This document shows positions 19,994 to 32,981 of a DNA stretch of 35,209 bases, piece after piece (positions within the stretch are counted from its first letter, which is position 1; every line of letters starts with the position of its first letter). Location of the stretch: the NCBI GenBank assembly GCA_019115185.1, contig DXDZ01000082.1:1-35209 (forward strand). Reading direction: 5' to 3'. The position numbers were made by a program, and so were the translations under genes. The notes beneath the pieces are model-generated. The model was not told the origin of the DNA and made no database searches. It saw nothing but the letters and a program-made list of their open reading frames with translations. The stretch is from Candidatus Agathobaculum merdipullorum. GTDB taxonomy: Bacteria; Bacillota; Clostridia; Oscillospirales; Butyricicoccaceae.

Positions 19994-20016
19994 AAACTTA
20001 TGAGGTGACATTGACC

Positions 20017-21723
20017 ATGAAAGTTGCAAACTATATCCAGCTTGCCAGAACTCAGCTGCATTTGACGCAGGAATATCTGGCGGAAAACATCGGCGTCAGC
20101 CGACAGGCTATCTCCCGCTGGGAAAACGGACAGGCCCAGCCTTCCGCCCGCAATATGGTCAAAATTGCCGCCTTGCTGAATGTCTCAGTGGACCAGCTCA
20201 CCGGCGCTGCACCGCTGGAACCTCCGGTTCCAGCTCCTGCCAATGCCAGTACGCTGACCGACGATCTGATGGAAAGCTGGACCGATCTGTTCCAACGCAC
20301 CATGGGCGTGGATCTGTCCCGCTACGCGCCGGAGCATATCCGCCAAACCGTACAGAATTATATGCAGCAGCATGATTTGCGCTCGGTTTCCTCCTTTGTC
20401 CGATTGATGTCCGCATCCAAAGAACGACGAATGGAGTTTCTGCATGCGATCCAGCCGCCTGCACCCACTTTTTTTGACGATCCCGCATTTTACCGTTACA
20501 TCCAGAAGGAGCTTTTGCCCCGCATTCACACGCCCGGCACCCCCATCCGCGTATGGGCGCTCAGCGCCGCCGATGGGCAGGAGGCTTTTTCGCTGGCCAT
20601 GGCGATTGCCGAATTTCAGGAGCAGAGCAACTGTTCCGACAGCGTGCGCATTTTCGCAACCGATGCTGCCTATCTAGAGGCACACAAAGAGGGAACAGAC
20701 GGCTTTTTCACCCCGCGTCAGGTTGCGTCCATTCCGCAAGCCCTGCTGGAAAAATATTTGATTCCGGTGGAGGGCGGCTTTCAGATCTGCGCAGATATAC
20801 GCAAAATGGTGGTCTTTTCCCCATACGATCCGCTGATTGACCCGCCTTTCTCCACGATCGAACTGGTATGCTGCCGCAGATTGGTCTCCATTTTGTGTCC
20901 CAGCTGTCAAGCCCGACTGATCCAGACACTCTATCACAGTCTCATTCCCTCCGGCTGCCTGCTTTTGCCCAGTTCCCACCCGCTCACCGATGGGCATATG
21001 CATTTCTCCGCCAACCGTGACTGTCCGGGTATCTGGCATAAGCTGGACGACGAGGACGATATCTGTTGGGAATACGGCTCCTGCCTGGTGTCCTCCCACC
21101 AATCCGATGGTTATCCGCTCGGCGTGCCGATTCATCGCATCCTACAGCAATTTTTCGTTATGCACTATCCGAATGCGCTTCTAATCGATGAAAATTTCCG
21201 CATCGTGTTCGTCGGAGAAGATATCTTCCATCGGTTCCATCTGGACCAGCAGGGATATTCCGGCCGTCTGGCCGATCACGTCAGCGGCGATCTGATGCAG
21301 CGCATCCAGCTTTCCGCCCACCGTCTTCAGGTGGCCGCAGACCCCAAACGTGTCAACCAAACGCTCATCCGCCTGAACGAAACCAACCGCACCATGTATA
21401 TGCGCATGGCCGGAGCTTTAGTCGAAAAACGCTGGTACTATCTTGTGGCATTTTATGACTACCGCCCGCAGAACAGCGCACGCGATGCAGACAAGCGCTC
21501 ACTGGAACAGCAATTGATGGACACGGAAAGCAACCTGAAAAACAAGTTGCAGGAACTCGTCCGGGCGCAAGATCAGATCGAGGTTTTAAACGAGAAAATC
21601 AATAGCCTCAATCACGCGCTATCCAACCGTTCGTGGGAGGTACGCAGCCTTCAGCATGAAGTGGACTTGCTCAATCAGGAGCTTTCCCGTCTGCACGATC
21701 AAAACAAAGGTCTTATTTCATAA
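20017..21723 (+). CDS. XRE-type HTH / CheR-like methyltransferase / PAS-like / coiled-coil fusion protein
   Basis: Start ATG (MKVANYIQ) after GAGGTG; HTH LTQEYLAENIGVSRQAISRWENGQAQPSARNMVKIA; CheR-like DLSRYAPEHIRQTV...TFFDDPAFYRYIQKELLPRI...IRVWALSAADGQEAFSLAM...RIFATDAAYLEAHKEG...FSPYDPLIDPPFSTIELVCCRRL; PAS-like NALLIDENFRIVFVGEDIFHRF; C-terminal heptad-rich coil. Confidence 0.82.
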   Translation: MKVANYIQLARTQLHLTQEYLAENIGVSRQAISRWENGQAQPSARNMVKIAALLNVSVDQLTGAAPLEPPVPAPANASTLTDDLMESWTDLFQRTMGVDLSRYAPEHIRQTVQNYMQQHDLRSVSSFVRLMSASKERRMEFLHAIQPPAPTFFDDPAFYRYIQKELLPRIHTPGTPIRVWALSAADGQEAFSLAMAIAEFQEQSNCSDSVRIFATDAAYLEAHKEGTDGFFTPRQVASIPQALLEKYLIPVEGGFQICADIRKMVVFSPYDPLIDPPFSTIELVCCRRLVSILCPSCQARLIQTLYHSLIPSGCLLLPSSHPLTDGHMHFSANRDCPGIWHKLDDEDDICWEYGSCLVSSHQSDGYPLGVPIHRILQQFFVMHYPNALLIDENFRIVFVGEDIFHRFHLDQQGYSGRLADHVSGDLMQRIQLSAHRLQVAADPKRVNQTLIRLNETNRTMYMRMAGALVEKRWYYLVAFYDYRPQNSARDADKRSLEQQLMDTESNLKNKLQELVRAQDQIEVLNEKINSLNHALSNRSWEVRSLQHEVDLLNQELSRLHDQNKGLIS

Positions 21724-24622: not shown

Positions 24623-25321
24623 TTGAAGCATACTATTCTGATTGCCGAGGACGACCGCGATATCATCGAGCTGCTGACCCTGTATCTGGGCAGCGAATTT
24701 TCCGTGCAGTCCGTCACGGACGGCACCGAAGCGCTTGCACTCATCCGCGCAGGCGGGATCTCGCTGACGCTGGTAGATATCATGATGCCGGGCCTGAACG
24801 GCTACGAGCTGATCCAGCGCGTGCGCGAATTCAGCAACATGCCCATCATCATTCTGTCAGCCAAGAGCATGGACACGGACAAGGTGCTCGGACTGAACAT
24901 CGGCGCGGATGCCTATATCACCAAGCCGTTCAACGCGCTCGAGGTCGTGGCTTATGTCAAATCGGCGCTGCGCCGGTATTATCAGCTGGGAGCGGACAGT
25001 GCGCCCGTCGCTGCGCCGCGCATACTGACGCTGGGCGAGCTGGAGCTGGACACGGATAAATTTGTGCTGCGCAAAAACGGCCTGCCCGTTCCGCTGACCT
25101 CCACCGAGCTGAAAATCATCGCGGAAATGATGCGCTGTCCCGGCCGGGTATTCACCCGCGCGCAGCTGTACGAATGCGTAGGCGGCACCTTTTACGAGAG
25201 CGATGACAGCACCATGATGGTACATATCTCCAACCTGCGCGCCAAAATCGAATACGATCCGGCCAATCCGCGCTATATCAAAACAGTCAGGGGGTTGGGC
25301 TATAAAATTGAAGACCAATAA
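24623..25321 (+). CDS. OmpR-family response regulator
   Basis: 232 aa; LVDIMMPGLNGYEL, LSAKSMDTDKVLGLNIGADAYITKPF, winged helix HISNLRAKIEYDP. Confidence 0.93.
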   Translation: MKHTILIAEDDRDIIELLTLYLGSEFSVQSVTDGTEALALIRAGGISLTLVDIMMPGLNGYELIQRVREFSNMPIIILSAKSMDTDKVLGLNIGADAYITKPFNALEVVAYVKSALRRYYQLGADSAPVAAPRILTLGELELDTDKFVLRKNGLPVPLTSTELKIIAEMMRCPGRVFTRAQLYECVGGTFYESDDSTMMVHISNLRAKIEYDPANPRYIKTVRGLGYKIEDQ

Positions 25322-26909
25322 ACTTCTGCTGGGAAAAAGTTTCCTGTGCACCTGCATCTCTTATTTTATCCTCTGCTCGCTGCTGGTGTTTGTCAGTAAT
25401 GCCGCGCTCAATGCACTCATTTCGTTGCGGCTGGACAACGCCTTTCCCACCCTTGCCAATATGCTGCAATACAGCGAGGCGCTCGAACAGGACGATTTTG
25501 CCTCCATCCCCATGCGCCGGTTTAATGGCTGCGCGTTTATGGTGTTTGACGCGAACAGCAACCTCCTATACGCCTCGGACAATGAGTTTCGAGAGCATTT
25601 TCACGCGGACGACCTGTGGATGATCAATGAATATGACTCCGACCTGTACTATACCGTGCAGGAAATGCCCAATATGCCGGGCGGCGAATACTACTATATC
25701 GCACTGCATCATTATAATTACGATACCGGAGAGACCGATTTCCTGAATTACTGCATCGTAGACGAAAATTACCAAATTGTCGATGGTGATTTGTTCCCCT
25801 GGCTGGAGGAATTATCCGACCGGGAGTTTGAACTGTTGCAAGGCATCTATCAGGGACAGTGGGACATTTCCAAGGCGGTATACCAAACCGTAACTGGCGA
25901 GGAACGCACGCTGATTTTTGTCAGCCCGCGTTTTAACGAAGCCGCCTATCTCAAGGCGCTGGAAAGCGCCAACCGTCTGGCGCTGCTCTCGCTTCCGATC
26001 ATTCTGGCGGTCATTTTTCTGCTGGCCATTCTGTTCAGCCGTAAGATCCGCCGCGCTATTCTGCCGCTGCACAACGCAATCGTGGCTTACGGCGCAGGCC
26101 GCCGGGTGGAGGTCAACACTGATGCCCTTCCCATCGAGTTCCGGCAGGTGACCGACAGTTTTACCCATCTGCTCGACCGGCTGGAGCAGGTCAGCGCGGA
26201 AAAGCAGGCCGCTGATGCGGATAAACAGCGCATGCTTGCCGACCTGTCCCACGACCTGAAAACGCCGCTGACCGTCATTCAAGGCTATGCGCAGGCGCTG
26301 GTCGATGGCGTGGTGCCGCCCGACAAACAGCGGCAATACCTCGAAACCATTTGCCGAAAAGCCTCGGACAGCACCGTACTGATGAATTCCCTGTTTGATT
26401 ACGTTCGTCTCGACCATCCGGACTATGTTTTGCAGGCGGAAACCGCCGATCTGTGCGAATTCTGCAAAAGCTATCTGGCAGAAAAGTACCCGGAGATCGA
26501 GTCGCACGACTTTTCGCTTTCGCTGGGCCTGCCGGATACCCCGGTCATGGCCTCGTTTGACCCCCGCCTGCTCCGGCGGCTGCTGGAAAACCTGACCAGC
26601 AACGCCCTGCAATACAATCCCGCCGGCACAACGCTGTTCTTTGGACTGACAGACACCTCCGATACCGTTCGGCTGACCATAGCGGACGACGGCGTCGGCA
26701 TCCCGCCCGAGCTGGCTGATACCCTGTTTGAGCCGTTTGTTACCAGCAACCGCGCCCGCACCTCGGGCGGCGGCACAGGACTGGGCATGGCGATCGTCAA
26801 AAAGGTAGCGGAGCTGCATGGTGGCTCTATCCAGCTGGTGCGTCCGCCGCACGACGGCTGGCACACCGAATTCGAGCTGACGCTGCCCAAAGCGCCGTTT
26901 TCCAAGTGA
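25308..26909 (+). CDS. Sensor histidine kinase (TTG start, overlaps the response-regulator gene)
   Basis: 533 aa; two TMs with extracellular sensor, HisKA (MLADLSHDLKTPLTVIQGYAQALVDG), HATPase (SGGGTGLGMAIVKKVAELHGG). Confidence 0.93.
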   Translation: MKTNKLLLGKSFLCTCISYFILCSLLVFVSNAALNALISLRLDNAFPTLANMLQYSEALEQDDFASIPMRRFNGCAFMVFDANSNLLYASDNEFREHFHADDLWMINEYDSDLYYTVQEMPNMPGGEYYYIALHHYNYDTGETDFLNYCIVDENYQIVDGDLFPWLEELSDREFELLQGIYQGQWDISKAVYQTVTGEERTLIFVSPRFNEAAYLKALESANRLALLSLPIILAVIFLLAILFSRKIRRAILPLHNAIVAYGAGRRVEVNTDALPIEFRQVTDSFTHLLDRLEQVSAEKQAADADKQRMLADLSHDLKTPLTVIQGYAQALVDGVVPPDKQRQYLETICRKASDSTVLMNSLFDYVRLDHPDYVLQAETADLCEFCKSYLAEKYPEIESHDFSLSLGLPDTPVMASFDPRLLRRLLENLTSNALQYNPAGTTLFFGLTDTSDTVRLTIADDGVGIPPELADTLFEPFVTSNRARTSGGGTGLGMAIVKKVAELHGGSIQLVRPPHDGWHTEFELTLPKAPFSK

Positions 26910-27062: not shown

Positions 27063-27434
27063 ATGAAGTCAATGAATCATAAAACCGCAAAAGGCGTTGC
27101 CGCAATTTCTCTGGCCATGATGATGGCGCTGCCCGCACTGACCGGCTGCTCTTCGCTTATCAAGTCCGATCAGAACGCCGAGCCTGCGCAGGAGGAAACC
27201 TCCCAGACGCAGACAACGACCACCGATACCACGAAGGACAAGGCCAGCTCCTCCACCCAAAAGAAGGCGGCGGTCAAGCAGTCCGGCAGCAAGGCCTCTT
27301 CCAAAAAGAGCACCAAGAAGGCTTCCACGAAGAAGGCGACGAAGTCCTCCACCAAGAACGCCACCACCCAGAAGGCTGCTGCTTCCACTCAGAAGGCTGC
27401 CACTTCCACCCAGAAGGCCGCTGACAAGAAATAA
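27063..27434 (+). CDS. Small Lys/Ser/Thr/Ala-rich lipoprotein
   Basis: 123 aa; signal and lipobox ALTGC|SS; low-complexity SSKKSTKKASTKKATKSSTKNATTQKAAASTQKAATSTQKAADKK. Confidence 0.8.
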   Translation: MKSMNHKTAKGVAAISLAMMMALPALTGCSSLIKSDQNAEPAQEETSQTQTTTTDTTKDKASSSTQKKAAVKQSGSKASSKKSTKKASTKKATKSSTKNATTQKAAASTQKAATSTQKAADKK

Positions 27435-27476: not shown

Positions 27477-28994
27477 ATGTACAACATCCTGGAACTTTTA
27501 GAGCTCACTGCCGCCGCGCGGCCGGAAAAAACCGCTGTCATCGACGAAAACGGCGCAGACCGCTTTGATACGCTGCTCTCCCGCAGCCGCCGCTGCGGTA
27601 CCGCGCTTGCCGCGCACCTCTCCCCCACCGCACCGGTTCCGGTGCTGCTGGAAAAGAGCCGCGAAGCCCTGTATGCCTTTTTCGGCGCGGCGTACGCAGG
27701 CTGCTTTTATGTTCCGCTCTCTCCCGCGCTGCCGCAGCCGCGGCTGGCGCAGATCCTGTCGGTCCTGCAAGCCCCCTGCATTGTGACCGACAGGGAACAC
27801 GCTGCGCTGGCCGCGCAGCTGCCCGGCGTGGGACGCATCCTGCCGATCGAGGACCTGCTGCAAACGCAAGCAGACGACGCGCTGCTGGCGCGCATCCGCA
27901 GCTGCGCCATCGACGGCGACCCGCTGTACTGCAATTTCACCTCCGGCTCGACCGGCACGCCCAAGGGCGTGGTTGTCAGCCACCGCTCCGTGCTGGATTT
28001 CATCCCTGTTTTCACCGAACTGTTCCGGATCGGTCCGGACGATATCATCGGCAATCAGGCGCCGCTTGATTTCGATGTTTCGGTCAAGGATATCTATTCC
28101 GCTTTGCACACCGGTGCCACGCTCGTCCTGCTGCCGCGGCGACTGTTCTCCCAGCCGTCCGCGCTGATGGACGCGCTGTGCACGCATCGGGTCACCACGC
28201 TCATCTGGGCCGTTTCCGCGCTGTGTCTGGTGTCCTCCTTCCATGGTCTGGACTATCGCACGCCGGAAACGGTAAACAAGGTGCTGTTCAGCGGCGAAGT
28301 GATGCCGCCCAAGCACCTGAAAAGCTGGATGGAGCATTTGCCGCATGCGGATTTCGTCAACCTGTACGGCCCCACCGAGATCACGTGCAACTGCACGTAC
28401 CATAGGATAGAGAGTGGTAGAGATTATACAGCGGGTATCCCGCTCGGGACGGCCTTCCCGAACGAGCGGGTGTTCCTGCTGAACGAGGCGGGACAGGAAA
28501 TACATACGCCGGATCAGGCGGGCGAAATCTGTGTCAGCGGCGCAGCGCTTGCGCTCGGGTACTACAATAATCCCGGGCAGACACAGGCCGCATTCACCCA
28601 ACACCCCGGCCACAGCCGCTATTTGCAGCCGATCTACCGCACGGGGGACCTCGGGCGTTGGAACGCCGCAGGCGAGCTGTACTTCCTCGGCCGGAAGGAT
28701 TTTCAGATCAAGCACATGGGCCACCGTATCGAGCTGGAAGAAATCGAGCGCGCGGTGCAGGAGGTCGAGGGCGTCAGCCGCTGCTGCTGCGTCTACGACG
28801 CGCAAAAGGAACGGCTGCACGGCTTTTACACCGGCACGGCGGACAAGGCTGCGGTGCGCAGCGCACTGGCACAAAAGCTGCCCGTATTCATGCTGCCGCG
28901 CACGCTCGAGCCGCTGGACAGCCTGCCGCTGACCGAAAACGGCAAAACCGACCGCAAACGACTGCTTGCACTGGCAAGAAAGGAGATCGTATGA
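27477..28994 (+). CDS. dltA: DltA-like amino-acid adenylation enzyme
   Basis: 505 aa; FTSGSTGTPKGVVVSHRS, NQAPLDFDVSVKDIYSAL, LFSGEVMPPKHLKSW, NLYGPTEIT, YRTGDLGRW, KTDRKRL. Confidence 0.85.
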   Translation: MYNILELLELTAAARPEKTAVIDENGADRFDTLLSRSRRCGTALAAHLSPTAPVPVLLEKSREALYAFFGAAYAGCFYVPLSPALPQPRLAQILSVLQAPCIVTDREHAALAAQLPGVGRILPIEDLLQTQADDALLARIRSCAIDGDPLYCNFTSGSTGTPKGVVVSHRSVLDFIPVFTELFRIGPDDIIGNQAPLDFDVSVKDIYSALHTGATLVLLPRRLFSQPSALMDALCTHRVTTLIWAVSALCLVSSFHGLDYRTPETVNKVLFSGEVMPPKHLKSWMEHLPHADFVNLYGPTEITCNCTYHRIESGRDYTAGIPLGTAFPNERVFLLNEAGQEIHTPDQAGEICVSGAALALGYYNNPGQTQAAFTQHPGHSRYLQPIYRTGDLGRWNAAGELYFLGRKDFQIKHMGHRIELEEIERAVQEVEGVSRCCCVYDAQKERLHGFYTGTADKAAVRSALAQKLPVFMLPRTLEPLDSLPLTENGKTDRKRLLALARKEIV

Positions 28995-30316
28995 CCGAAC
29001 TGCAAATGGAAAACCTCACCGCACAATACGGCTCGCCGCTGTATGTGTTCGATGTACAGGCCCTGCGACAGCGCGTAGCGTTTCTGCGGCGCAGCCTGCC
29101 GACCGGTGTCGGCCTGTGCTATGCGATCAAGGCCAATCCCTTTCTGCTGCGCGAGCTGATCAATCATGTGGAGCGTTTTGAGGTTTGCTCCCCCGGCGAA
29201 GCGGCAATCTGCCGCCGCCTGCACATTCCTGCCGAAAAGCTGGTCATTTCGGGCGTATACAAAACCCCGTCGGATATCGAGCGCATGATCTCGCAGCAAG
29301 GCGGCCCGCGTTTGTTTACCGTCGAGTCCGCCCGCCAATTTGCGCTGCTCAGCCAGCTGGCTGCACACTACCGCGTCACCGTCCATGTGCTGCTGCGCCT
29401 AACCAGCGGCAGCCAGTTCGGGCTGGAAGAGCAGGAGATCATCCAGATCATCCGCAGCCGCGCCGACCATCCCTTCATCCTGATTCGCGGCCTGCAATAC
29501 TTCTCCGGCACGCAGAAAGCGTCGCTCAAACGCTTGCAGCGCGAGCTGGACGCACTGGACGACTTCGCCTGCATGCTGGCCGAAAAGCTGGGCTTTATCG
29601 TGCATGAGCTCGAGTTTGGCCCCGGCTTTCCCGTGCAGTATTTCTCCCCCGAAAACTTTGACGAAGCCGAATTTCTGTCTGGCTTCTCCGATATGCTGAT
29701 GGGCCTGCGCTGCAAAGCGCATGTCACACTCGAACTTGGGCGCAGCATTGCCGCCAGCTGCGGCACCTATCTGACCCGCGTGGTTGATGTCAAGCACAAC
29801 AAAGGCCAGAATTACGCCATTCTGGACGGAGGCATCCATCATCTGGTTTATTACGGACAGCGTATGGCCATGCAGATTCCCCCTTACCGGCTGTATCCGC
29901 CTCGTCTGGGCGAAGCACAGCCGTGGAACCTGTGCGGCTCGCTGTGCACCGTAAACGATATTCTGGTCAAGCAGCTGCCGGTGCCCGATCTCAAATGCGG
30001 CGACCTGTTCGCGTTTTTGAATACCGGTGCCTACTGCATGACCGAAGGCATTTCCCTTTTCCTCAGCCGTGCGCTGCCGCGCATCGTGCTGTTGATGCCG
30101 GACGGCCGTCCGCTTCTTGTGCGCGACGCGCTGCCCACCGACGAAATCAACTCACCTACTTACGAAAGGACGGAGCATTATGGAACAACTGCTTGCAATT
30201 CTGGAGGAACTTCAACCCGGCGTGGATTACACTACCTGCCGTACACTGATCGATTCGCATTGTCTGGACTCGCTGACCATTCTTGCGTTGGTAGCCGAGT
30301 TGGAAGAGGCGTTTGA
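28991..30316 (+). CDS. Fold-type III PLP-dependent decarboxylase (Orn/DAP decarboxylase superfamily, BtrK-like)
   Basis: ATG at 28991 after AGGAG; LCYAIKANP (PLP Lys), RGLQYFSGTQ, LEFGPGFPV, ELGRSIAASCGTYL, GSLCTVNDIL, NTGAYCMTEGISLFLSR; 441 aa, last 137 bp overlap the carrier-protein gene. Confidence 0.88.
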   Translation: MTELQMENLTAQYGSPLYVFDVQALRQRVAFLRRSLPTGVGLCYAIKANPFLLRELINHVERFEVCSPGEAAICRRLHIPAEKLVISGVYKTPSDIERMISQQGGPRLFTVESARQFALLSQLAAHYRVTVHVLLRLTSGSQFGLEEQEIIQIIRSRADHPFILIRGLQYFSGTQKASLKRLQRELDALDDFACMLAEKLGFIVHELEFGPGFPVQYFSPENFDEAEFLSGFSDMLMGLRCKAHVTLELGRSIAASCGTYLTRVVDVKHNKGQNYAILDGGIHHLVYYGQRMAMQIPPYRLYPPRLGEAQPWNLCGSLCTVNDILVKQLPVPDLKCGDLFAFLNTGAYCMTEGISLFLSRALPRIVLLMPDGRPLLVRDALPTDEINSPTYERTEHYGTTACNSGGTSTRRGLHYLPYTDRFALSGLADHSCVGSRVGRGV

Positions 30317-30410
30317 CATCACCATCCCGACCGTTGAGATCATTCCGGCCAACTTCAATTCCGCCGAGGATATGTGGGCCATGATCGTTCGTTTACAGGA
30401 GGAAGGCTAA
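30180..30410 (+). CDS. dltC: DltC-like acyl/aminoacyl carrier protein
   Basis: 76 aa from MEQLLAILEELQPGVDY; phosphopantetheine site DSHCLDSLTIL; IIPANFNSAEDMWAMI. Confidence 0.87.
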   Translation: MEQLLAILEELQPGVDYTTCRTLIDSHCLDSLTILALVAELEEAFDITIPTVEIIPANFNSAEDMWAMIVRLQEEG

Positions 30411-30413
30411 TCC

Positions 30414-32006
30414 ATGACATCCTACTGCTCGCTGCTGTATCTGGCCGTTTTTCTGCCGGCGGCGGTGCTCGTTTACCGTATCCTGCCGCAGCGTCTGCGC
30501 TGGGTCGCGCTTCTTGCGGCAAGCTATACGTTTTTCTGGTCAGTCAGCGGCAAGCTGTTGGTGTTTCTGCTGTTTTCTACCGTTTCCATTCACCATTTCG
30601 GCCTTTGGCTGACCGCCGAACAACAGGACCGCGACCAAAGGCTGACCGCTGCCGCGCCCGCCAAACGAAAGGCAATCCGGCAGTATTTTATCCGGCGGCA
30701 GCGGCGTATTCTGCTGCTGGCGTCGCTCCTGCATATCGGCATCCTGATTACGCTCAAGTATGCCGCGTTTTTCAGCACCAATCTCAATTCCCTGCTGCAC
30801 GCGCTTCGTCTGCCGGTTTCGCTGCCCGTGCCTGCGTTTTTACTGCCCATCGGCATCTCGTTTTATACTTTGCAGGCCCTTTCCTATCTGCTCGATGTCT
30901 ACCGCGGCACGATCCGCGCCGACCGCAATCTGGCGCGCCTCGCACTCTTCCTCGGCTTTTTCCCGCAGATCATGGAAGGGCCGATCTGTCGCTATGGCCA
31001 GACCGCACAGCAGCTGTGGGAAGGCCGCCCGGTCACGTGGCAGGGCCTGACCTTCGGCATACAGCGCATCCTATTCGGCCTGATTAAAAAAATCGTCATT
31101 GCTGACCGGCTCAACTTGCTCATCAAAACCGTTTTCAACGATTATGCCACCTATGATGGCGGCGTGATCGCGCTGGCAATGGTGTGCTACACCTGCCAGC
31201 TTTACATGGACTTCTCCGGCACGATGGATGTGGTCATCGGCAGCGCCGAGATCTTCGGCGTGCACCTGCCCGAAAACTTCCGTCAGCCGTTTTTCTCCCG
31301 CAGCATTTCTGAATTCTGGATGCGCTGGCATATCACGCTGGGCACCTGGTTAAAGGACTATGTGTTCTATCCGCTATCCATGTCCGGCCCGCTGAAAAAG
31401 CTGACGGGCGCGGCGCGCCGCCGTCTGGGCAACCATTACGGCCCGCTGCTCTCCGGCTCGTTCGCGCTGGGCGTGGTCTGGCTGTGCAACGGTCTGTGGC
31501 ACGGCGCGGGCTGGCACTATATCTTTTTCGGCCTGTACCATTTCGCGCTCATTCTTGCGGGCAGCCTGTTTGATCCGATCGCCCAGCGCGTGACCGGTCT
31601 GCTGCACATCGACCGCAACTGCATGCCCTATCGCATCTTCCAGATCGTGCGTACCGGGCTGCTGGTCTGCGTGGGCGAGCTGTTCTTCCGCGCAAACGGC
31701 CTGCGCGCCGGTCTTGCGATGTTCCGCACGATGGTAACCGATTTCACGCCTGTCTCTTTCCTCAACCGCAGCTTTCTGACGCTCGGCATGGACAAGATGG
31801 ATTTTGTGATCGTTGCAGTGGCAGTCGGTATCGTGCTGCTCGTCGGGATTCTGCGGGAGCGCGGCGTCCCGCTGCGCGAATCCATTGCGCGCCGTCCGGT
31901 CGCGCTGCGCTGGACGGTCTACTACGCCGCATTTTTCTTTCTCGTCATTTTCGGCGCATACGGCATCGGCTATGTGCCGGTTGATCCGATCTATGCTGCA
32001 TTTTAA
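30414..32006 (+). CDS. dltB: DltB-like MBOAT-family O-acyltransferase
   Basis: 530 aa polytopic; IGISFYTLQALSYLLDVYRG, GFFPQIMEGPICRY, LWHGAGWHYIFFGLYH (catalytic His region). Confidence 0.93.
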   Translation: MTSYCSLLYLAVFLPAAVLVYRILPQRLRWVALLAASYTFFWSVSGKLLVFLLFSTVSIHHFGLWLTAEQQDRDQRLTAAAPAKRKAIRQYFIRRQRRILLLASLLHIGILITLKYAAFFSTNLNSLLHALRLPVSLPVPAFLLPIGISFYTLQALSYLLDVYRGTIRADRNLARLALFLGFFPQIMEGPICRYGQTAQQLWEGRPVTWQGLTFGIQRILFGLIKKIVIADRLNLLIKTVFNDYATYDGGVIALAMVCYTCQLYMDFSGTMDVVIGSAEIFGVHLPENFRQPFFSRSISEFWMRWHITLGTWLKDYVFYPLSMSGPLKKLTGAARRRLGNHYGPLLSGSFALGVVWLCNGLWHGAGWHYIFFGLYHFALILAGSLFDPIAQRVTGLLHIDRNCMPYRIFQIVRTGLLVCVGELFFRANGLRAGLAMFRTMVTDFTPVSFLNRSFLTLGMDKMDFVIVAVAVGIVLLVGILRERGVPLRESIARRPVALRWTVYYAAFFFLVIFGAYGIGYVPVDPIYAAF

Positions 32007-32021
32007 GGAGGTGTGTCCCAC

Positions 32022-32981
32022 TTGAAAAAACATATGGCGCTCGTTGTCAAAGGAGCCTGCTTTTTGACGCTGCTGTGTGCGCTCATGCTGGCCGCCTCCT
32101 ATCTGTTTGTACCCAAGAACAACCACAAGGCCTTCGGCGTAAACGACGCGGAAATGCTGGCCAGCGGCATTCTGGGCGAACGGGAAAACTCGATCGACGT
32201 GCTGGTTGTGGGCGACAGCGAAGCGTACAGCTCAATCTCGCCCATGCAGATGTGGGAGGAGCGCGGCTTCCGCTCCTATTTATGCAGCACACCCGCCCAG
32301 CCGCTCTATGACTCCTATCGTTTTCTGCGGCAGGCGCTCGAGCGGCAAAGCCCCTCGGTCGTCGTGCTGGAAACCAACGCGATCTTCCGTCCATACAAAC
32401 TCAACGACTATCTGCTTTCCCGCGCGAAAAATTTGTTTTCCATCCTGCGGTATCATGACCGCTGGAAATCGCTCAAGGTCAACGACTTCGGTCGTCCGGT
32501 AGAGTACACCTGGACGGATGACCTCAAGGGCTTCCGCTATAACTCCGCCGTCGCAGCCGCCAGCACCAAAAACTACATGCTGCCGACCGACGTATCCACC
32601 CCCATTCCCTCGCTCAATGAGTCCTGCTTGCAGGATATGCTCGCCCTGTGCAAGGAAAAGAATGCCGAACTGATTTTGGTCAGCACACCCAGCACCATCA
32701 ACTGGAATCAGGCACGGCACAACAGCATCGCGGCTTTTGCCAAGGAAAACAACCTGTCCTATCTCGATTTGAACACCATGCCCAAGGAAGTACCGATCGA
32801 CTGGTCGCGCGACACGCGCGACCGCGGCGATCACCTCAACTACGCGGGCGCTGTTAAAGTGTCCGCTTTCCTCGGGAAATACTTACAGGAAACCTATTCG
32901 CTGCCCGATCAGCGCGATGCCGCGCACAACAGCAGCTGGAACGATGCACTCGGTCGCTACCTCAACATGGTACGCGGATAA
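32022..32981 (+). CDS. Membrane-anchored SGNH-hydrolase-like protein (DltD/AlgX-like partner of MBOAT)
   Basis: Single N-terminal TM; IDVLVVGDSEAYSS (GDS block) and DRGDHLNYAGAVKVSAFLGKYL (DxxH block); TTG start after AAGGAGG (GTG 32013 possible). Confidence 0.78.
   Translation: MKKHMALVVKGACFLTLLCALMLAASYLFVPKNNHKAFGVNDAEMLASGILGERENSIDVLVVGDSEAYSSISPMQMWEERGFRSYLCSTPAQPLYDSYRFLRQALERQSPSVVVLETNAIFRPYKLNDYLLSRAKNLFSILRYHDRWKSLKVNDFGRPVEYTWTDDLKGFRYNSAVAAASTKNYMLPTDVSTPIPSLNESCLQDMLALCKEKNAELILVSTPSTINWNQARHNSIAAFAKENNLSYLDLNTMPKEVPIDWSRDTRDRGDHLNYAGAVKVSAFLGKYLQETYSLPDQRDAAHNSSWNDALGRYLNMVRG

Follow-up and report, generated by a model that had tools for sequence, protein, structure and literature searches.

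A Dlt-like operon with a built-in BtrK-like decarboxylase is a candidate envelope aminoacylation system in Agathobaculum

The window analyzed here is a 35,209-nucleotide stretch of DNA from Candidatus Agathobaculum merdipullorum (assembly GCA_019115185.1, contig DXDZ01000082.1, positions 1 to 35,209 of the forward strand), part of a 1.7 Mb metagenome-assembled genome (MAG) that is 90% complete. Between 27477 and 32981 it carries a five-gene operon, all on the + strand, encoding an adenylation enzyme (ligase), a fold-III pyridoxal phosphate (PLP) decarboxylase, a carrier protein, a membrane-bound O-acyltransferase (MBOAT) and an SGNH transferase, in that order. We think it fairly probable that this operon serves a Dlt-like aminoacylation of the cell surface, using an amino acid that is decarboxylated while bound to the carrier. 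The best candidates for the transferred group would be beta-alanyl, made from aspartate, or a gamma-aminobutyryl (GABA) group, made from glutamate.

Results and discussion

A five-gene operon conserved across distant taxa

The genes of the operon are as follows.

27477..28994, + strand: adenylation enzyme (ligase), 505 aa; PF00501 (E 2.6e-61), TIGR01733 (332 bits, over the cutoff), pocket alignment
28991..30316, + strand: fold-III PLP decarboxylase of the BtrK/VinO kind; PF02784/PF00278, BtrK as closest PDB entry by sequence and fold, motifs
30180..30410, + strand: phosphopantetheine carrier protein, 76 aa, attachment site Ser31 (LDSL); PF00550 over the cutoff
30414..32006, + strand: MBOAT acyltransferase with His306, His363 and the C-terminal acyl-shuttle motif DPIYAAF, including Tyr527; PF03062 (E 2.2e-13), invariant residues
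32013..32981, + strand: membrane-anchored SGNH transferase with Ser69 (GDS), Asp270/Asp273 and His274; AlphaFold model, structural matches, conservation

The gene order proposed in the initial annotation agrees with the reading frames, with the Pfam and NCBIfam assignments (AMP-binding and AA-adenyl-dom for the ligase, Orn_Arg_deC_N and Orn_DAP_Arg_deC for the decarboxylase, PP-binding for the carrier, and MBOAT) and, for the SGNH protein, with an AlphaFold model. Adjoining genes are separated by a few bases or overlap, so that the operon is nearly gapless. The stop of the ligase overlaps the decarboxylase start (ATG 28991), and the decarboxylase frame extends to 30316, giving a 137 bp out-of-frame overlap with the carrier gene (30180-30410), although its conserved part finishes near 30175. 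This long read-through is found only in close Agathobaculum relatives, and the genes of other species stop earlier. A frameshift was considered and rejected, as only the usual stop was lost in the Agathobaculum group. For the SGNH gene, TTG 32022 is a more likely start than GTG 32013, because it lies nine bases behind a good Shine-Dalgarno sequence.

When GTDB species genomes were searched using only the decarboxylase as query, 80 loci were returned. Because 75 of these 80 hold the complete five-gene set, and the other five are interrupted by contig ends, the arrangement is not due to chance; all five genes occur together in 75/75 relatives whose locus is uncut, which settles in its favor the neighborhood conservation that the initial annotation had left to be checked. 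In one relative (L115) all five genes are present in a different order. The operon ranges from Oscillospirales to Erysipelotrichia and Coriobacteriia, with representatives in Agathobaculum, Ruminococcus bromii, Pseudoflavonifractor, Faecousia, Lachnospiraceae, Traorella (Erysipelotrichia), Enorma and an Eggerthellaceae MAG (both Coriobacteriia). Of 396 genomes sampled within the order, 17 encode the decarboxylase at E <= 1e-60. Its scatter over distantly related taxa, with identities of 50-60%, suggests that it has been transferred horizontally.

The decarboxylase resembles enzymes that act on conjugated amino acids

The closest solved relative of the decarboxylase by sequence is BtrK, the L-glutamyl-[BtrI carrier] decarboxylase (E 1.8e-30), which is also its top fold match (7ru7, TM-score 0.86). 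The operon family shares the motif LC(T/S)xND (LCTVND in the window). LCTPxD is found in BtrK, a VinO-like enzyme beside methylaspartate mutase, two exosortase-A enzymes, SbnH, a siderophore enzyme and natural-product enzymes, and CExxD in every LysA of the compared set. Where typical LysA has a His stacked on PLP, the operon decarboxylases have Phe or Tyr, and BtrK has Tyr. Judged by these features, the enzyme is of the BtrK/VinO/SbnH kind, whose substrates are conjugated amino acids; the initial annotation had guessed as much.

The operon decarboxylases form one clade (100/100) separate from LysA. All 81 lack a loop of about 15 residues that other family members have between R136 and QFG, and this loss may open the mouth of the active site. 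Lys47 (PLP), Glu248, Cys319 and Tyr348 are conserved, residues one would expect an active enzyme to retain. A role like that of alanine racemase was rejected on the conservation of Glu248 and Cys319, which we take to be typical of these decarboxylases.

The ligase pocket has lost the features that select D-alanine

In DltA, the methyl group of D-Ala packs against Leu, Met and Cys, and the Cys keeps out L-Ala (PMC8972799). The corresponding positions are Val201, Lys204 and Ser272 in 76/76 decarboxylase-linked ligases; thus, all three D-Ala pocket residues are lost. The full pocket (D200, V201, K204, I243, L270, S272, L296, C304 and N305) corresponds to GrsA positions 235, 236, 239, 278, 299, 301, 322, 330 and 331. 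According to a review of adenylation domains, ligases for beta-amino acids have bulkier residues at GrsA 236 and 301 (Phe and Ser in VinN; Val236 in an evolved beta-Phe ligase), as well as a shortened loop with Lys330/Arg331 (PMC11253843). A bulky residue at 236 and a hydroxyl residue at 301 are present in the same 76/76 ligases, as Val201 and Ser272.

In the ligase tree, these enzymes are sister to ligases from operons of four genes (ligase, carrier, MBOAT and SGNH; loci L136-L143) that occur within the same taxonomic order, with DltA outside and the VinN and exosortase-A ligases distant. The ligase is thus best placed by sequence with DltA-like and nonribosomal peptide synthetase (NRPS)-type adenylation enzymes, not with the VinN/exosortase-A type. 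The initial annotation had likened the operon to known AMP ligase/decarboxylase/carrier trios, and that likeness holds for the decarboxylase but not for the ligase. Six of the eight sister ligases have Ala and Gly at sites 236/301, and the genomes with sister operons contain no such decarboxylase, only LysA-type homologs where any were found. Sites that discriminate decarboxylase-linked from sister ligases are enriched in the pocket (five of the nine pocket sites are among the 32 of 505; p = 8e-5, a value that ignores relatedness).

Most of the sister ligases have the non-DltA pocket code DAKCAGLGM, and the four-gene operons probably load something other than D-Ala.

Carrier and membrane proteins fit an acyl relay outside the Dlt family

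Ser31 is kept in the 80 aligned carriers. In the MBOAT, His306 and His363 are kept, and the C terminus of nearly all members is DPIYAxF, which includes Tyr527. The FXYXXF motif of DltX and PatA delivers the acyl group to the serine of the SGNH partner by way of its Tyr (PMC12148441). By sequence, the SGNH protein is matched only weakly in Pfam (E 0.005), and not by the DltD family (PF04914). Its AlphaFold model (mean predicted local distance difference test score, pLDDT, 95) matches SGNH hydrolases and DltD (6pfx), with an N-terminal helix suited as a membrane anchor, a conserved Ser69 and a conserved D-x-G-D-H motif. Two relatives (L093, 9175-11398; L086, 9287-11255) have a tandem pair of SGNH genes following the MBOAT gene.

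The other Dlt models were matched below their cutoffs: DltA by the ligase (271 bits, cutoff 559.85), DltC by the carrier (27.6 bits, cutoff 68) and DltB (TIGR04091) by the MBOAT (161 bits, cutoff 375). The initial annotation had also asked for a separate canonical dltABCD. Among 25 Agathobaculum genomes we found no DltD (PF04914) and no DltB above the model cutoff, in a search in which the positive controls B. subtilis and L. lactis score.

A model for tethered decarboxylation and transfer

There is precedent for decarboxylation on a carrier in butirosin biosynthesis (PMC7857480), and the same chemistry was demonstrated for VinN/VinO/VinL in vicenistatin biosynthesis (PMC11284099). With AfcQ/AfcP/AfcK, L-Asp is activated at its side chain and decarboxylated on the carrier, while free beta-alanine is not activated (PMC12186527); for bolagladin, beta-alanine fails to rescue a deletion of the BtrK-like BolN (PMC7756342).

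By analogy, the ligase would adenylate the side-chain carboxylate of L-Asp (most likely) or L-Glu and load it on the Ser31-phosphopantetheine of the carrier. Tethered decarboxylation requires loading through the side chain (Asp beta or Glu gamma), because a PLP decarboxylase needs a free alpha-carboxylate next to the amine. With only the other carboxylate available for attachment, Asp and Glu are the simplest candidates. The BtrK-like decarboxylase would then strip the alpha-carboxylate to give beta-alanyl-S-carrier (or GABA-S-carrier). The counterpart of Asp200 in VinN holds the beta-amino group. Since Asp200 is retained together with Val236/Ser301 (GrsA numbering), we lean, perhaps slightly, towards Asp and beta-alanyl over Glu and GABA.

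The membrane steps are modeled on the Dlt and PatAB schemes. The MBOAT would pass the aminoacyl group across the membrane to Tyr527 of its own C-terminal acyl-shuttle motif, and Ser69 of the SGNH protein would accept it and esterify a hydroxyl of an envelope polymer. A plausible candidate for this acceptor is lipoteichoic acid, given that the genome encodes two LtaS-like membrane proteins with a sulfatase fold and that no TagB/TagF-like protein was found in it. The initial annotation had expected a cationic modification distinct from D-alanylation; the product would indeed be chemically distinct, but it would not differ in net charge, having one positive charge as D-Ala does.

Several observations weigh against this model or limit the evidence for it. 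DAP (diaminopimelate) decarboxylases follow close behind BtrK in the match ranking of the decarboxylase, so rank by itself is weak evidence, and the motifs carry more weight. In the tree, the BtrK-like 'tethered' lineages branch separately with weak deep support, and do not join the operon decarboxylase in a single supported clade; we rejected the idea of one such clade, and because monophyly is unsupported the case for the decarboxylase is made by motifs and best matches. The ligase lacks the VinN-type loop shortening and has Cys304/Asn305 instead of the Lys330/Arg331 that hold the alpha-carboxylate, so Lys204 would have to hold it in their place. Lys204 is also present in the sister ligases without a decarboxylase, and we dropped it as a marker of decarboxylase-linked ligases since it does not discriminate. 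One sister ligase (L137) has the Val/Lys/Ser pocket in an 86%-complete genome without the decarboxylase. Finally, Pro replaces the first Phe of FXYXXF in the MBOAT, unlike in DltX and PatA; most sister operons have a standard FIYxxF, and the Pro is specific to the decarboxylase-linked group.

Alternative explanations

The same surface group could be made without tethering, if the decarboxylase acted on the free amino acid (Asp to beta-alanine, Glu to GABA) and the ligase then loaded the product. The gene set fits this route equally well, and Val236/Ser301 are also compatible with direct activation of a beta-amino acid (PMC11253843). We nevertheless regard it as unlikely, given that the closest solved relatives use conjugated amino acids and have the LCTxxD motif too, that the free beta-alanine route was excluded for AFC-BC11 and bolagladin (PMC12186527, PMC7756342), and that a pocket with Lys204 would match an anionic substrate. 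Less probable again is that the cassette does not act on a wall polymer at all, but produces a small molecule for secretion, or a modified exopolysaccharide or lipid. Trios of ligase, decarboxylase and carrier are known from natural-product and exosortase-A clusters, but no synthase, glycosyltransferase or exporter is conserved beside the operon, and MBOAT-SGNH pairs with a Tyr motif are envelope acyltransferases (PMC12148441).

Surface lysylation, in which a LysA-like decarboxylase would act on meso-DAP and the lysine be loaded by its alpha-carboxylate, is very unlikely. The decarboxylase belongs to the same superfamily as LysA and matches the LysA model (TIGR01048) at 155 bits, but this is under the cutoff of 297.9, and it lacks both the CES motif and the Arg that DAP decarboxylases have. 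The genome carries a separate LysA-like gene (G000:C4:3125-4333; 278 bits, just below the model cutoff of 298), which also led us to reject the decarboxylase as a LysA replacement, and Lys in the ligase pocket disfavors a cationic side chain. Nor do we give much credit to an ordinary D-alanylation operon with an incidental decarboxylase, which seems the most improbable of these readings. The ligase, carrier, MBOAT and SGNH genes do stand in Dlt-like order; against this, the three residues that pack around the D-Ala methyl are all changed, the Dlt models all fall under cutoff, and the decarboxylase is strictly conserved in the operon. Carrier-bound decarboxylation followed by transfer to the envelope thus remains the reading we prefer.

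Comparison with known systems

Like the Dlt system of teichoic acid D-alanylation (DltA, DltC, DltB, DltX and DltD), the operon combines an adenylation enzyme, a small carrier, an MBOAT and an SGNH protein, with an invariant MBOAT His and an acyl-shuttle Tyr. Unlike Dlt, it adds a decarboxylase, has no DltD family match, has lost the D-Ala pocket, and has its shuttle motif, with Pro for Phe, fused to the MBOAT, where Dlt uses the DltX microprotein. PatA/PatB, which O-acetylate peptidoglycan, also pair an SGNH partner with an MBOAT that has its own C-terminal Tyr motif, but their donor is acetyl-CoA, whereas the operon has a carrier.

With BtrJ/BtrK/BtrI (butirosin), VinN/VinO/VinL (vicenistatin), AfcQ/AfcP/AfcK (AFC-BC11) and BolO/BolN/BolC (bolagladin) the operon has in common a gene set for an adenylation enzyme, a fold-III PLP decarboxylase and a carrier, as well as a hydroxyl residue at ligase pocket site 301. 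Those trios make antibiotics or lipopeptides; here, in contrast, the trio is joined to an MBOAT-SGNH pair and the ligase is not of the VinN type. The exosortase-A pair TIGR03098/TIGR03099 is similar in having a ligase that adjoins the decarboxylase, an LCTPxD-type motif and an envelope context, but the operon proteins reach only 203.6 of 592 and 169.7 of 478 bits, the ligase is of another lineage, and no exosortase or exopolysaccharide genes were seen beside the operon. LysA shares the fold and PLP chemistry of the decarboxylase, but not its lack of a CES motif. By the tests applied, the operon falls outside the Dlt family and is not a full VinN-type cassette; it appears to work like a fusion of both.

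A trio of ligase, decarboxylase and carrier in the same order also occurs on a Paenibacillus cellulosilyticus plasmid (L154, 4521-7486), in a natural-product-like cluster with a P450 and a methyltransferase.

Significance

D-alanylation is the textbook route to a lower surface charge and to resistance against cationic peptides in Gram-positive bacteria. We give about even chances to a broader proposal, that envelope beta-alanylation (or GABA-ylation) is widespread in gut Bacillota and Coriobacteriia, with tethered decarboxylation in a Dlt-like operon standing in for D-alanylation. If so, this would be a second route with its own achiral beta- or gamma-aminoacyl group, and a surface chemistry new to gut commensals, among them Agathobaculum, Ruminococcus bromii, Pseudoflavonifractor and Enorma; in several of these the operon has its own two-component regulator. 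The stability of such esters, and how the host recognizes them, could be unlike those of D-Ala esters, and the decarboxylase-free sister operons offer a built-in comparison. In the open-access literature we found no description of this operon.

Regulator and neighboring genes

Three genes precede the operon.

24623..25321, + strand: response regulator (receiver and winged helix); Pfam, ortholog adjoins the operon in about two dozen relatives
25308..26909, + strand: sensor kinase; Pfam, sensor-region orthologs beside the operon in other genera
27063..27434, + strand: small Lys/Thr-rich lipoprotein-like protein with lipobox LTGC; no NCBIfam family over the cutoff

The response regulator and sensor kinase form a two-component system directly upstream of the operon. 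Orthologs, sensor region included, adjoin the operon in some two dozen relatives that span several orders (among them Agathobaculum, Traorella, Enorma and Faecousia), and none was found beside the sister operons without a decarboxylase. When flanking genes were compared all-versus-all, the two-component system alone was conserved, and no polymer-synthesis gene was kept beside the operon. The linked system probably controls operon expression. The lipoprotein-like gene directly precedes the operon and was seen in Agathobaculum loci only; that it is part of the system is doubtful.

Elsewhere in the window, a second fold-III decarboxylase (372-1502, + strand) is carboxynorspermidine-decarboxylase-like and unrelated to the operon. 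A 572-aa protein (20005-21723, + strand) joins a helix-turn-helix to a CheR methyltransferase domain, an unusual pairing.

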